Positions 8,971-14,793 of a DNA stretch of 58,474 bases are shown here, piece after piece (the first letter of the stretch is position 1; every line of letters starts with the position of its first letter). The position numbers were made by a program, and so were the translations under genes. This stretch comes from Myxococcales bacterium (GTDB taxonomy: Bacteria > Myxococcota > Myxococcia > Myxococcales > JAJYLH01): assembly GCA_021787845.1 (NCBI GenBank), contig JAJYLH010000035.1, positions 1-58,474 on the forward strand, in the 5' to 3' direction. Under the pieces are notes generated by a model, which saw only the letters and a program-made list of their open reading frames with translations, was not told where the DNA came from and searched no databases.

Positions 8971-10341
8971 CTACCCTCGCTCCCTGAGGTTCGGCACCAC
9001 CGAGAGGAGCGGCACGTCCAAGGACGCGCGCGCCTGCGCCGGCGTGCGCAGCGACCGGTCGTTGGACTCGAGCCACACCCCGGTGCCGACCGCGAGCCCG
9101 AGCGCGAGCGCGAGCACCACCCACAACAGCCGCGGCCGGTCGGGCGCCATCGGCTCGGTCGGCGCGCTCGGCGGATCGATCACGTCCGTCGCCGCGAGCG
9201 CCGACTCTTTCTCCAGCCCCAGCGCCACCTCGGCCTCGATTTTCCGGGAAGCGAGCGAGTCGTACTTCTTGCGCAAGAGGTCCCGGTCCCGGTCGAGCTC
9301 CGCCAGCGCACCCGCCCACTTCGCCGACGCCGCCGCTCGCCCGCGCGCCGCCCGGATGTCCGCCCGGAGCCCCTCGACCTCGCGCCGTGCCCGCCACGCC
9401 TCCCGCGCGAGCGCCCTTCTCTCCCGCACCGCTCCCGTGGCCTTCACGGCCGCCGCCCGCCGCGCGGCCTGGATACCGGCCACCTCCCTGGTCAGCCGGA
9501 TGGTGTCCGGGTACTGCGCCGAATAGATCGCCTTCGCGTGGATGAGCTGCTTCTCCAGGTCGTCCTGGATGGTGGCGAGCCGCTCGAGCTCCGGGTTGGT
9601 CGGGTTCGCCGGCAACAGCGCCCGCTGCTGTTCCACCGCGTGGAGCCAGTTCTCCGCGTTGTCGAGCTGTTTGGTCGCGCGGTCCGCCTCCTCCAGGTTC
9701 GCCTCGACCTGTTCGGGCAGCTCCCCGTCGTGCGCGAGCCGGAAGGCCCGCACCTTCCTGTCTTGCGCGTCGAGCGCGGCGGCGACCTTCCCCAGCTCGT
9801 CGTTCAAGAGGTCGCGCACCCGGGTCGCCTGGCCGATTCGGTCTTGCGCGTTCGCCTCGGCGAAGCCGTGCGCGACGGCCGAGACCACCGGCGCCGCCTT
9901 CGACGGATCCCCGGTGCGGTACGCCAGGTCGATAGCGCTGTCGCCATCCGGCTTCACTCCCAGGTGGCGCTCGAGCTCCTCCGCGGCGGCAGCGATGCCG
10001 TACCGCGAGACCGTTTTCGGATAGAGGTCGAACGTCTTGACCGCGCTCTCCAGGTTCGGCGTGCTCAAGAGCGCCTCTTTCGCGATCCGCAGCCGGTCCT
10101 CGAGGAGCGTCGTCACCGCTGGCCGGATCAGATCGGCGTGCGGCCGGTACGGCTCGACAATGATCGTCGCCTCCGCCTGGTACTGGCTCGGCAGGAGGAA
10201 GACCACCGCCACACCCACCACGAGAGCGCCAGCGCCGACCAGGAGCGCTGGACGTGCCCGGCGGCGCGCGGCCTGGACGAGCTCGCCCACCGTGTAGCCG
10301 CGCTCTTCCGGCACCTCGTGGATTCTTCCCGCGCTCTTCAC
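8971..10341 (-). CDS. Wzz/GumC-type polysaccharide chain-length/co-polymerase protein
   Basis: 456-residue inner-membrane protein with the Wzz layout. There is an N-terminal helix (LVGAGALVVGVAVVFLL) right after TVGELVQAARRRARP, a periplasmic Wzz domain beginning YQAEATIIVEPYRP, a long coiled-coil region (about 165-390), and a second membrane helix (LLWVVLALALGLAVG) before a short tail with SLDVPLLSVVPNL. The kinase domain is a separate downstream gene, so this is the split arrangement. The GTG start at 10341 overlaps the stop of the beta-barrel gene (GTGA). It should control polymer length and link polymerisation to the outer-membrane exporter. Confidence 0.9.
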   Translation of the reverse strand: MKSAGRIHEVPEERGYTVGELVQAARRRARPALLVGAGALVVGVAVVFLLPSQYQAEATIIVEPYRPHADLIRPAVTTLLEDRLRIAKEALLSTPNLESAVKTFDLYPKTVSRYGIAAAAEELERHLGVKPDGDSAIDLAYRTGDPSKAAPVVSAVAHGFAEANAQDRIGQATRVRDLLNDELGKVAAALDAQDRKVRAFRLAHDGELPEQVEANLEEADRATKQLDNAENWLHAVEQQRALLPANPTNPELERLATIQDDLEKQLIHAKAIYSAQYPDTIRLTREVAGIQAARRAAAVKATGAVRERRALAREAWRARREVEGLRADIRAARGRAAASAKWAGALAELDRDRDLLRKKYDSLASRKIEAEVALGLEKESALAATDVIDPPSAPTEPMAPDRPRLLWVVLALALGLAVGTGVWLESNDRSLRTPAQARASLDVPLLSVVPNLRERG

Positions 10342-11447
10342 GGCCGCCCCCCGGTCCAATCGAGATTGACGTACGCCGCGTCCCGCGCCAGCGCCGCCTC
10401 GCCGGCGACCGGCAGCCGCTCGAACCTGAGCGCGGTCACCCCCAGCCACACCCCCGCGAAGAGCCGCCGGAACGCGCCGCCTTCGAGGCCGTAGCCGGGC
10501 ACCCAGGTCGTGTCCCGCGGCGACGGATGGCTCCGGTAGTAGCCGACCCGCGCTCTGAGCTCCCAGTCGCGGTCGCCGTAGCGCCCGACCGCCTCCACCA
10601 GCTCGCCCGCGAGCACGCCGCCCCGCCCCGAGGGAACGGTCAGGTCGTGCGCCGCGTCCAGCTCGAGCCCCGAGAAGCGCCAAGCTTTCCAGAAGCGCAG
10701 CCGGGCGACGCCGAGCCAGAGCATCCCTTGCGCGTCGCCATAGGCGAGGGGACCCGCCGACGCTTCGACGAAGGTGCGGCGGGCGAGCCGCCAGCGCACC
10801 CCCGCGAGCACGTCCAGCGTCCGCGCGAGGAGGCCGGCCGAGGTGAAGAACAGCCGCCCCTCGGCCGCGGGAACGAGGGCGACGGCGCGGGTGAGCTGGT
10901 AGCTGGGCGTGAGCGCGAGCCCTGCCGCCTCCCCGCCAGGCTCGGTCGATTGATCGATGAACTCGACGCCCTCGAGCTCGACCCGGGTGTCGAGGGTCCA
11001 GCGACGGGAAAGCAAGCTCTCGACGCCCGCGCGCGAGCGAAAACCGAGGGTGCGGCCGCGGCCGGCGAGGAGCCCCACCTGCGCGAGCGCGAGCGGGTCG
11101 TCGGCTGCGCGCAGCCGGCCGTTCGCGTAGAGCCGGATCCGCCGGCCGAGACGGTCGGAGGCGCCAAGCTTCGCCTCGCCGAGGAGCACGCCTTTCTGTC
11201 GCACGTAGAAGCCCAAGCCGGTCGCCCTCAGGTTCGCGCTCACGCGCCAGAGCCGGTCGAACGCCACCCAGTCGAGCTGCGCGGTGGTCTCGCCGACGCC
11301 GTCGCCGCCCTTGTTGTCGAACAGCACGTCGTCGTCGAGCCCGGCCCCGACCGACACGCCGGGCGTGAGCCGGAGCTGCGGTGCCGCGAGGGCCGGCGCC
11401 GCGACCAGCGCGGGGAGCAGAACCGCAATCGCCGAGCGCCGTCGCAC
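10338..11447 (-). CDS. outer-membrane beta-barrel protein of polysaccharide export
   Basis: 369-residue protein with a clear signal peptide (cleavage near ALAAPQ). The rest is a continuous series of short alternating strands, e.g. RIRLYANGRLRAADD, RWTLDTRVELEGVEF and DWELRARVGYYRS, as expected for a monomeric barrel of about 16-18 strands. It sits between the exporter lipoprotein and the Wzz gene. In Myxococcus xanthus, short exporter proteins without their own outer-membrane helix are accompanied by such barrels (WzpX/S/B type), so this is probably the pore-forming partner. The assignment rests on layout and strand pattern, not on a specific motif. Confidence 0.75.
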   Translation of the reverse strand: MRRRSAIAVLLPALVAAPALAAPQLRLTPGVSVGAGLDDDVLFDNKGGDGVGETTAQLDWVAFDRLWRVSANLRATGLGFYVRQKGVLLGEAKLGASDRLGRRIRLYANGRLRAADDPLALAQVGLLAGRGRTLGFRSRAGVESLLSRRWTLDTRVELEGVEFIDQSTEPGGEAAGLALTPSYQLTRAVALVPAAEGRLFFTSAGLLARTLDVLAGVRWRLARRTFVEASAGPLAYGDAQGMLWLGVARLRFWKAWRFSGLELDAAHDLTVPSGRGGVLAGELVEAVGRYGDRDWELRARVGYYRSHPSPRDTTWVPGYGLEGGAFRRLFAGVWLGVTALRFERLPVAGEAALARDAAYVNLDWTGGRP

Positions 11448-11459
11448 GCCGCCACCGCC

Positions 11460-12137
11460 CTACCGCACCACCACGGTGTCGCCCGGCTCGAGGTCCACCC
11501 GGTCGTGACCGCTCTCGAGATCCTTGAGCGCTAGCGTGTAGCGTTTGCCCGAGTCGGCCCGCAGCAGGGTGACGTCGTCACGGGCGGAGAACTCGCCGAG
11601 GCCGCCCGCGGTGGCGATCGCCTGGAGCACGTCGACCTGGGTCGCGAGCGGATAGACGCCCGGCTTCTGCACCTCGCCGACGACGTAGAAGCGCGAGCTG
11701 TTGACCTGGCGGACGATGACGCTGACCACCCGCGGGTCCTGGATGTAGGCGCGCAGCCGCTCGACGATGCGCGCGCGCAGTTCGTCGGGGGTGAGCCCCG
11801 CGGCGGTGATCTCGCCCACGATCGGCAGAGAGATGCGCCCATCGGGCCGGACCGGCACCGTGCGGGAGAGGTCGGGGTTCTTGTAGACGGCGACCTCGAC
11901 GACGTCCGCGCGGCCGAGCCGGTATGGCAGGGCGAGAGGGGAACCCGCGTGGACCAGTTGGGCGTGAGCGCATCCGGTTACAGAAAGCGCTAGCGCTAAG
12001 CATGCCGGGCCGACGAACAGCCGGGAAAGAACAACGCGTCCCGGTGACGGAGTCCAGCACCGCTGACCCTGGGCCCTTCGACTTCGCTCAGGATGAATTT
12101 CGTCGAAGGGCGAGCGGCCCAGCGCGCTCCCGCCCAT
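11460..12137 (-). CDS. short polysaccharide export (OPX/Wza-like) lipoprotein
   Basis: Export protein with a Poly_export domain (YRLGRADVVEVAVYKNP through DGRISLPIVGEI) and an SLBB-like domain (FYVVGEVQKPGVYPLATQVD). A signal segment FVGPACLALALSVTGC ends in a lipobox, so the mature lipoprotein is only about 170 residues. It lacks the extra SLBB domain and C-terminal helix of full-length Wza. The start is uncertain: no ATG, GTG or TTG lies close to the signal segment. The nearest in-frame ATG (12137) lies inside a dispersed palindromic repeat, which would add about 35 odd residues. It is first in the five-gene export operon. Confidence 0.82.
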   Translation of the reverse strand: MGGSALGRSPFDEIHPERSRRAQGQRCWTPSPGRVVLSRLFVGPACLALALSVTGCAHAQLVHAGSPLALPYRLGRADVVEVAVYKNPDLSRTVPVRPDGRISLPIVGEITAAGLTPDELRARIVERLRAYIQDPRVVSVIVRQVNSSRFYVVGEVQKPGVYPLATQVDVLQAIATAGGLGEFSARDDVTLLRADSGKRYTLALKDLESGHDRVDLEPGDTVVVR

Positions 12138-12164
12138 CCTTCGACGGTGCCCAGGATGAGCGGG
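12073..12164. repeat. dispersed palindromic repeat (CTTCGAC...CTCAGGATGA type)
   Basis: Two adjacent hairpins. GCCCTTCGAC (12073-12082) pairs perfectly with GTCGAAGGGC (12102-12111). CCCGCCCATCC (12129-12139) pairs with GGATGAGCGGG (12154-12164) with one mismatch. The same building blocks (CATCCT-TCGAC, CAGGATGA, GAGCGG) occur at 28676-28775 and 41916-42090, so this is a family of mobile or amplified small repeats. The copy overlaps the 5' end of the exporter gene. Confidence 0.65.
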
Positions 12165-13116: not shown

Positions 13117-14793
13117 ATGTTCCGCTCGCATTCGCGCTATTTCGGCCTCTCGCTGTTGCTCGTCCTCCTCCTTCCCCGGCCATCCAGCGCGCAGCAGGTG
13201 GGGTTCACGCCGGCGCTCGTCGACACGAAGTTCGCCTCCCTGTCGAAGGACGACTGCACCCAGAACCCGCAGGACACGACCAACTTCGCCTTCACCTGGA
13301 GCTACACGCCGACCTGCGTCGGTGGCGAGGAGGAGGTGTTCCTCTCGACCTCGTCCTCCTGCGCCGACACGACCACCGGCACCCCTCCCGTAGCTCTGAT
13401 CCTCCGCGGCAAGGCGGTACCGACCTCGTCGGGCGGCACCGTCACCGGAAAGTACCCGACCGACGGCTCGAACGAGACGTTGGACGCGCAGATGCTGTTC
13501 TCGCTCGCCGCCGGAACGCCGACGACGAGCCCCGACGCCAGCGTCTGCACCGCCAAGGAGGTCAGCGCCACCGTCTACCTCTGCGTCGAGGTCTTCCCGC
13601 CGGCCGGGTGCCTGGTGAGCACCGCGTCCTTCGGGCAGGTCCCGATTACGGTCGACTCGACGCCGCCGCCCGCGCCGACCTTGACCCAGGTCAGCCCGCT
13701 CGACTCGGCGCTCCTCGTGAGCTGGACGATGCCCTCCGACCTGGGCGGCGCGAGCCACTACCAGGTGAACGCCACCGCCAACGGCAAGACCACCACCAGC
13801 ACCATCGACGGAGCGAGCACCACCAGCGCCAAGATCCAGGGCCTGACGAACGGCACCACCTACTCGGTGACCGTGCAGAGCCTCGACGACGCCGGCACCC
13901 AGACCTCGTTCAACAACGTCAGCGCCGACTCCAACGAGCTGAGCGGTACGCCGCAGGAGGCCATCGACTTCTACACCCGCTACCGGTCGGATGGAGGGCA
14001 AGAGAAGGGCGGCTGCGCTTCCGCGCCCATGTCGCTCCTGGCGCTCCTCATCGCGGGCCTGCTCTTGTGGAAGAAGCGTACGCGCCTGGCCGTGCTGGTG
14101 CTCTGCCTCGCGCTGCCGGCGCTCGGGCGCGCGCAGGATTTCGCGGCGCCGCCGACCTTTCACAGCCCCCAGAGCTTCACCGTCGCCCTCCGGCTGGGCC
14201 CCTACTCTCCGAGCATCGACTCGGAGCCGGCGCTCAAGGGCAAGACGCCGTACAAGGACATCTTCGGAACCCAGACGCCGCTGATGTGGCGCGTCGGCCT
14301 CGACTACGACGTGTTCAAGAAGTTCGGGCGGTTGTCGGTCGGCCTCTCCCTCGGCTTCTGGCAGGCGCTGGGCAAGGGCCGCTCGAAGTCGACCGATCAA
14401 CCGACCGGCGACACGATTCTCCTGAACCTCTGGCCCCTGACGCCGTCGGTCGCCTATCGCTTCGACGTCCCCTGGGTGCGCTACGGCGTCCCGCTCGTGC
14501 CCTTCGCGCGTTTCGGGTACGGGTTCACCAAGTGGTCGAGCAGCAAGAACGGCCAGACCTCGACGTTCGGCGGCGACTCCGCGAGCGGCTGGGCGCGCGG
14601 CATCGAGTACGCGGTCGGCGTCGAGTTGGTCCTGGACGCCTTCGACCCGCAGCAGGCGGTGGAGCTGGACCAGGACTCCGGCATCAACTCGACGCGGCTC
14701 TTCTTCGACTTCGAGGGGATGAGCTGGCGAGGAGCGGGAGGGCTGCGGCTCGACGGCACCAGCTTCGGGGGAGGGCTGGCGCTCGCCTTCTAG
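13117..14793 (+). CDS. FN3 protein with MYXO-CTERM-like anchor fused in frame to an outer-membrane beta-barrel
   Basis: 558 residues, starting at an ATG 12 bases after a GGAG. A signal peptide (LSLLLVLLLPRPSSAQQ) leads to a Cys-containing domain (about 28-180) and an FN3-like domain (about 184-279). Then comes EKGGCASAP, a short helix SLLALLIAGLLLW and a basic KKRTR, which is the Cys-helix-basic layout of MYXO-CTERM anchors. Instead of a stop, the frame continues into a second signal-like segment (LAVLVLCLALPALGRAQ) and about 215 residues of strand-rich sequence (RVGLDYDVFKKFGRLSVGLS, YRFDVPWVRYG) ending in GGGLALAF, like a barrel's last strand. The two halves resemble proteins that I recall as adjacent separate genes in Myxococcus. 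This could be a true polyprotein, or a lost stop or start. Confidence 0.75.
   Translation: MFRSHSRYFGLSLLLVLLLPRPSSAQQVGFTPALVDTKFASLSKDDCTQNPQDTTNFAFTWSYTPTCVGGEEEVFLSTSSSCADTTTGTPPVALILRGKAVPTSSGGTVTGKYPTDGSNETLDAQMLFSLAAGTPTTSPDASVCTAKEVSATVYLCVEVFPPAGCLVSTASFGQVPITVDSTPPPAPTLTQVSPLDSALLVSWTMPSDLGGASHYQVNATANGKTTTSTIDGASTTSAKIQGLTNGTTYSVTVQSLDDAGTQTSFNNVSADSNELSGTPQEAIDFYTRYRSDGGQEKGGCASAPMSLLALLIAGLLLWKKRTRLAVLVLCLALPALGRAQDFAAPPTFHSPQSFTVALRLGPYSPSIDSEPALKGKTPYKDIFGTQTPLMWRVGLDYDVFKKFGRLSVGLSLGFWQALGKGRSKSTDQPTGDTILLNLWPLTPSVAYRFDVPWVRYGVPLVPFARFGYGFTKWSSSKNGQTSTFGGDSASGWARGIEYAVGVELVLDAFDPQQAVELDQDSGINSTRLFFDFEGMSWRGAGGLRLDGTSFGGGLALAF

Follow-up and report, generated by a model that had tools for sequence, protein, structure and literature searches.

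The window analysed here, a stretch of 58,474 nucleotides from a Myxococcales bacterium, carries on its plus strand, at 13117-14793, a gene in which an exported FN3 protein is followed without interruption by an outer-membrane beta-barrel. Polyproteins are rare in bacteria, and the locus raises the question of whether two envelope proteins are made here as one chain and then cut apart. We read the gene as an export polyprotein, at a probability of about two in three, in which one cut by signal peptidase I and another, probably by a myxosortase, would yield a surface pair in 1:1 ratio; the cleavages are what we infer from predicted sites.

One open frame from signal peptide to barrel

Translation of 13117-14793 (+) gives a single open frame of 558 amino acids, and hmmscan separates two family halves in it cleanly. 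The N half matches NF045522 (MXAN_2561 family) with 137.1 bits over residues 13-321 (profile positions 6-301 of 304), below the cut-off of 150 bits, and is on this profile match called a relative of the family and not a curated member; in keeping with the layout of that family, nearly the whole profile is covered and an MXAN_2562-type partner is fused on. The C half, with 166.3 bits over residues 354-558 (profile positions 2-208 of 208), exceeds the curated cut-off of 100 bits of NF040596 and belongs to the MXAN_2562 family of outer-membrane barrels. There is one FN3 domain (Pfam PF00041, residues 187-263, E 1.7e-9), and matches of the N half to phage-tail families were rejected, being due to this domain only.

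An AlphaFold2 (AF2) model of the full chain, built on 17 fused homologues, consists of beta domains, two short helices and an eight-stranded barrel; the FN3 matches of the modelled N-half beta domains came from Foldseek. Modelled alone, the barrel has 8 strands and a pLDDT of 93.9, and VIA-align gives Z of 14-16 against OmpA, NspA and OmpW, which share the eight-stranded fold with only 11-16% sequence identity to the C half and have no fused exported partner. The junction reads GGC(300)ASAPMSLLALLIAGLLLWKKRTRLAVLVLCLALPALGRA(339)/QDF (slashes mark predicted cuts throughout), the mature barrel is predicted to start at Gln340, and the chain ends in ALAF before the stop TAG at 14791-14793. The features are as follows.

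13117..13191 (+): N-terminal Sec signal peptide, residues 1-25, MFRSHSRYFGLSLLLVLLLPRPSSA/QQ, predicted cut SSA/QQ (sequence; signal-peptide PWM 16.0; ATG 13117 with Shine-Dalgarno -6.4 kcal/mol)
13192..14013 (+): exported N part related to the MXAN_2561 family, an N-terminal beta domain and one FN3 (13675-13905) (NF045522, PF00041, AF2, Foldseek)
14014..14016 (+): Cys300 (GGC), the invariant Cys of MYXO-CTERM type, predicted lipidation and myxosortase site (alignment; TIGR03901)
14032..14070 (+): predicted first membrane helix, residues 306-318, MYXO-CTERM type, N-out/C-in (AF2, low confidence; PWM 1.8)
14071..14085 (+): predicted basic cytoplasmic turn KKRTR, residues 319-323, serving both as the end of the sorting signal and as the n-region of signal peptide 2 (sequence; Arg321 nearly invariant)
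14086..14133 (+): predicted internal signal peptide 2, the second membrane helix and a GRA/QD site of signal-peptidase-I type after Ala339 (PWM 27.8; Ala339 nearly invariant)
14134..14793 (+): MXAN_2562-family 8-stranded outer-membrane beta-barrel, predicted mature start Gln340 (NF040596; AF2; VIA-align)

Every element named in a preliminary description of this DNA, namely the signal peptide, FN3 domain, Cys-helix-basic anchor, second signal-like segment and barrel end, is present in one polypeptide without a stop. The membrane hairpin that it proposed for the two hydrophobic segments is also predicted by AF2, as helices 306-318 and 324-336, in a region of low confidence.

The fusion recurs across Myxococcota

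We searched 195 Myxococcota genomes for both families, extracted the loci and placed the two domains with profiles, which allowed 144 genomes to be classified, each counted once. The two domains are fused in 44 of these (45 genes, two of them in one genome) and split in 100; two loci, L159 and L161, were called fused by eye, their N domain being under the profile threshold. Fusion occurs in 18 of 30 families, 15 of them with fused genes only and 3 mixed, and the other 12 are split only. The preliminary description's statement that relatives in Myxococcus are separate adjacent genes proved right: MXAN_2561 and MXAN_2562, which resemble the gene studied here in both halves, gene order and domain layout, form two genes in each of the 58 Myxococcaceae-like genomes read (family f6), with an overlap of a few bases in nearly every case, whereas here they form one chain. 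All 21 genomes read in family f3 are split as well. The fusion is no peculiarity of this genome or departure from a norm, as the preliminary description had supposed, given its presence in 18 of 30 families, nor are the homologues uniformly split, as a search and count of both halves has established.

In a tree of the barrels, the fused or split state changes 9 times by parsimony; since the tree is unrooted, gain and loss of the fusion are not distinguished. Two genomes stand out as exceptions: G004 (L088), from a fused family, is split and has no usable start codon; G160 (L083) is fused within a split genus. Both may be recent switches or assembly indels. Another genome, G055 of family f4, holds two diverged fused copies (L129 and L130), one of them relocated, and it is this relocated copy that stands nearest in the tree to the gene at 13117-14793, with an SH-aLRT support of 99% and one long branch; the family search found only one copy in the source genome of the latter.

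The recurrence bears directly on the suspicion that a missed stop or an indel has joined two genes in this assembly. The assembly consists of 153 contigs at 98% completeness, and the two exceptional genomes resemble possible indels, but 44 of 144 genomes, in 18 of 30 families, have the same fusion with an open frame, and the reading frame is conserved across the junction. Neither chance nor a sequencing error such as a missed stop is therefore the cause, and for this gene we regard an artefact as having a negligible chance; for the fusion class as a whole, it is refuted by the 44 genomes. In family f2, ten fused genes come from separate MAGs, and nine matching full-length barrel loci were recovered in separately deposited MAG records.

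A predicted sorting signal and a predicted signal peptide at the junction

The MYXO-CTERM-like segment, GGCASAPMSLLALLIAGLLLWKKR, carries Cys300 and has the Cys-helix-basic pattern of MYXO-CTERM in the form GGC-helix-KKRTR. Scanned in isolation, it scores 17.8 bits with TIGR03901, under the cut-off of 20; a split relative of Myxococcaceae type (L007) likewise stays under it, with 19.2 bits. The tag lies at residues 300-323 of 558 and is thus internal and not C-terminal as in MYXO-CTERM. Cys300 is invariant in 17 of 17 aligned fused proteins of MYXO type, and Arg321 and Ala339 are nearly invariant in the alignment of the 17 fused homologues.

The second signal-like segment, RLAVLVLCLALPALGRA/QDF, has the parts of a signal-peptidase-I substrate: KKRTR as n-region, LAVLVLCLALPAL as h-region and the AxA-type site GRA/QD, with Gly at -3 and Ala at -1. 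We scored such segments with a PWM derived from 59 distinct signal peptides, all taken from split barrel proteins, and run with leave-one-out, using as control the C-terminal membrane helices of split MXAN_2561 proteins (95th percentile 9.5, maximum 11.7). The second helix of the 558-residue chain scores 27.8, the best site of the chain and above the control maximum, and the first scores 1.8, i.e. it contains no cleavable signal. Among the 45 fused genes, the second helix scores higher than the first in 42, and 43 of 46 rows are above the 99th percentile of barrel windows (G015 was read twice, hence 46 rows for 45 genes). The second helix is above the 95th percentile of the control in 32 of 45 fused genes; in the other 13 it is within it, and the case for signal peptidase is correspondingly weaker there. 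The two cleavages considered in the preliminary description are plausible, at the predicted sites Cys300 and after Ala339.

In four close f2 pairs, dN/dS is 0.16-0.32 at the junction, 0.21-0.57 for the N domain and 0.11-0.27 for the barrel; pairs at greater distance are saturated or give weaker values. Judged by these ratios, the junction is maintained as protein, in a single frame.

The topology would also permit an uncleaved bitopic protein, remaining in the inner membrane as an intact hairpin with two periplasmic domains or bridging the inner and outer membranes, and cleavage at the junction is predicted. We think this quite improbable, given that a signal-peptidase-type site lies right behind helix 2 in most fused homologues and that 100 split genomes have this barrel as a protein of its own. 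Furthermore, a barrel held on an inner-membrane linker of 10-20 residues can hardly reach the outer membrane.

The barrel and its ribosome-binding signal

Among 119 split loci (duplicates included), the barrel start lies at -4 relative to the end of the stop of the first gene in 101 and at -1 in 11, so that start and stop overlap in 112. The median Shine-Dalgarno energy at these split barrel starts is -9.5 kcal/mol, a value somewhat favoured by picking the starts partly by Shine-Dalgarno score. Under the identical rule of choice, the best candidate per gene at fused junctions has a median of -5.4. Taken individually, start codons at fused junctions have a median of -3.3 versus -2.8 elsewhere in the same genes, and 5.3% of them are at or below -8 versus 4.7% in the background; those reaching -8 are in L090, L091, L092, L093, L097 and L101, all from lineages with a CFI-box-type junction (see below). 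The junctions of L070, L074 and L089 contain zero ATG, GTG or TTG codons. These energies show that the ribosome-binding signal of the second gene has been lost in fused genes.

At the junction of 13117-14793 there are four in-frame candidates (ATG 14029, TTG 14065, GTG 14092 and GTG 14098), and these leave room for a nested gene, in which the barrel would be translated separately from an internal start and the long frame would be incidental or give a second product. Such a start at TTG 14065 would yield MWKKRTRLAVLVLCLALPALGRA, a good signal peptide, and the second gene of split relatives begins within a few bases of the junction. The four candidates, however, have Shine-Dalgarno energies of only -0.7 to -3.3 versus the split median of -9.5, start codons at fused junctions are at background level, and the three fused homologues without any junction start codon still have the barrel. 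We consider a nested gene unlikely. Because junction Shine-Dalgarno energies are at background level and three junctions have no start codon, the barrel of 13117-14793 is most likely made only within the long chain, and for L070, L074 and L089 there is a strong case, again from sequence, that it is made only in this way. The open frame, the missing junction Shine-Dalgarno and the conservation of frame together indicate a single translated chain, as expected of an export polyprotein.

A CFI-box takes the place of the MYXO-CTERM segment in deep lineages

In f11, f18 and other deep fused lineages, a CFI-box stands in place of the MYXO-CTERM segment, and the order is CFI-box, helix, basic residues, second signal-like helix and barrel. 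Two loci were scanned with NF041770 and scored 71 and 82 bits at a cut-off of 40 (L086 and L101); in other loci of f11, f12, f15, f17, f18 and f19 the CFI-box-CTERM was assigned by eye. The CFI-box occupies the MYXO-CTERM place and begins, with its own cysteine, at the same GG-C position as the MYXO-CTERM Cys, which suggests an equivalent role in sorting. Our literature search found no paper on CFI-box-CTERM, nor one on MXAN_2561/2562.

Proposed processing of the chain

In the proposed pathway, the chain would enter Sec via signal peptide 1 and its FN3 part would fold in the periplasm. Transfer would stop at helix 1, with the basic turn on the cytoplasmic side, and export, now of the barrel, would resume with helix 2. 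Signal peptidase I, which we take from general knowledge to be part of the machinery, would cut after Ala339 and free the barrel for insertion into the outer membrane. On the other side, Cys300 would be lipidated and cut by myxosortase, and the FN3 lipoprotein would be sorted to the cell surface, leaving behind a hairpin of about 39 residues. Surface protein and barrel partner would in this way be produced at strictly 1:1; where the genes are split, coupled translation across the stop-start overlap would give a ratio near 1:1.

For the second cut, the genome encodes elsewhere a myxosortase-family protein (best NCBIfam match MrtX, 150 bits, under the cut-off of 180) and has at least 7 other MYXO-CTERM matches. 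In M. xanthus, MrtX cuts the MYXO-CTERM of TraA in a Cys-dependent manner, and this cleavage also occurs in E. coli (PMC11980579). The polyprotein reading is weakened by scores that are all below cut-off (TIGR03901 17.8/20, NF045522 137/150, MrtX 150/180), by the low confidence of the AF2 hairpin and by the several deep fused lineages with a CFI-box instead of MYXO-CTERM. The scores slightly under cut-off and the lineages without MYXO-CTERM at the junction would also fit a chain cut by signal peptidase only, whose N product retains the helix and is no myxosortase substrate, or loses the helix to another protease. This variant has a small chance, about that of a nested gene or a little above: it has against it the Cys-helix-basic pattern with its invariant Cys, the myxosortase-family protein and other MYXO-CTERM matches of this genome, and the report that internal sorting tags function (PMC11980579).

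As a wider proposal, to which we give slightly less than even odds, a phylum-wide family of export polyproteins may use a single hairpin both to sort the upstream protein and to start export of the downstream barrel, with processing by myxosortase and signal peptidase I; lineages would switch between fusion and stop-start overlap as alternative ways of making one 1:1 surface complex, and the CFI-box would be a functional equivalent of a sorting signal. The occurrence of fused beside overlapping split versions offers a direct test of how equal dosage of two envelope proteins is ensured, and also of the idea that one hairpin in the membrane can double as sorting signal and signal peptide. Furthermore, the CFI-box becomes linked to protein sorting, and the poorly understood MXAN_2561/2562 pair to a surface complex of TraA/TraB type.

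Relation to known systems

Among bacterial polyproteins, that of fbcH of Bradyrhizobium, which encodes cytochromes b and c1, contains an internal signal sequence at which signal peptidase cuts; it belongs to a respiratory complex and, unlike the gene studied here, has neither a sorting signal nor an outer-membrane barrel. A precedent is MXAN_5598, in which an internal MYXO-CTERM is followed by a barrel in one ORF that has been proposed to be processed (PMC11980579). By description, it combines a surface protein, an internal MYXO-CTERM and an outer-membrane beta-barrel as 13117-14793 does, but it is a large adhesin with a barrel with OmpA domains and one atypical case in M. xanthus, whereas the present fusion is smaller and recurrent across the phylum. 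The principle thus has one published precedent, and what is new here is how widely it occurs, the fact that it alternates with overlapping genes, and the signal peptide embedded in the chain.

In TraA/TraB, the reading frame for the MYXO-CTERM receptor TraA overlaps the one for TraB, the barrel with which it pairs (PMC11980579), and the stoichiometry of the two is 1:1 (PMC12045341). The predicted product of 13117-14793 is similar by description, being a MYXO-CTERM surface protein with an outer-membrane barrel partner, but TraA/TraB have other domains, are encoded by two genes and include in TraB an OmpA domain that the barrel here does not have. By this analogy, the most likely role is that of a surface-exposed protein docked on its own outer-membrane barrel.

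Genomic context

In many sampled lineages the pair adjoins an Asd-like gene, so identified from its sequence, with uppS, cdsA, rseP and tsaB further along; this uppS-cdsA-rseP-tsaB-Asd-like neighbourhood is conserved at L184, L186, L192, L200, L201 and similar loci. The copy at 13117-14793 is flanked by polysaccharide export genes of the Wzz/Poly_export kind, on the minus strand, and by an FKBP gene. The two copies of G055 mirror this difference, one at the usual Asd-like locus and the other, which groups with the gene at 13117-14793, relocated. We also considered the conserved neighbours as a guide to function; none was gained for 13117-14793, as this copy sits elsewhere.

Two further features of the window were observed upstream of the gene. 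Between the genes for polysaccharide export and chain length, the minus strand at 10338-11447 encodes a 369-residue protein that has a signal peptide but matches nothing in Pfam; by its sequence it looks like an outer-membrane beta-barrel belonging to the exopolysaccharide cluster. At 12074-12160 there is a short dispersed repeat, TTCGACTTCGCTCAGGATGA with a degenerate inverted partner, whose 20-base core has 93 copies in the genome at up to 2 mismatches versus 0 for the reversed control and which, by this pattern, is a REP-like element.
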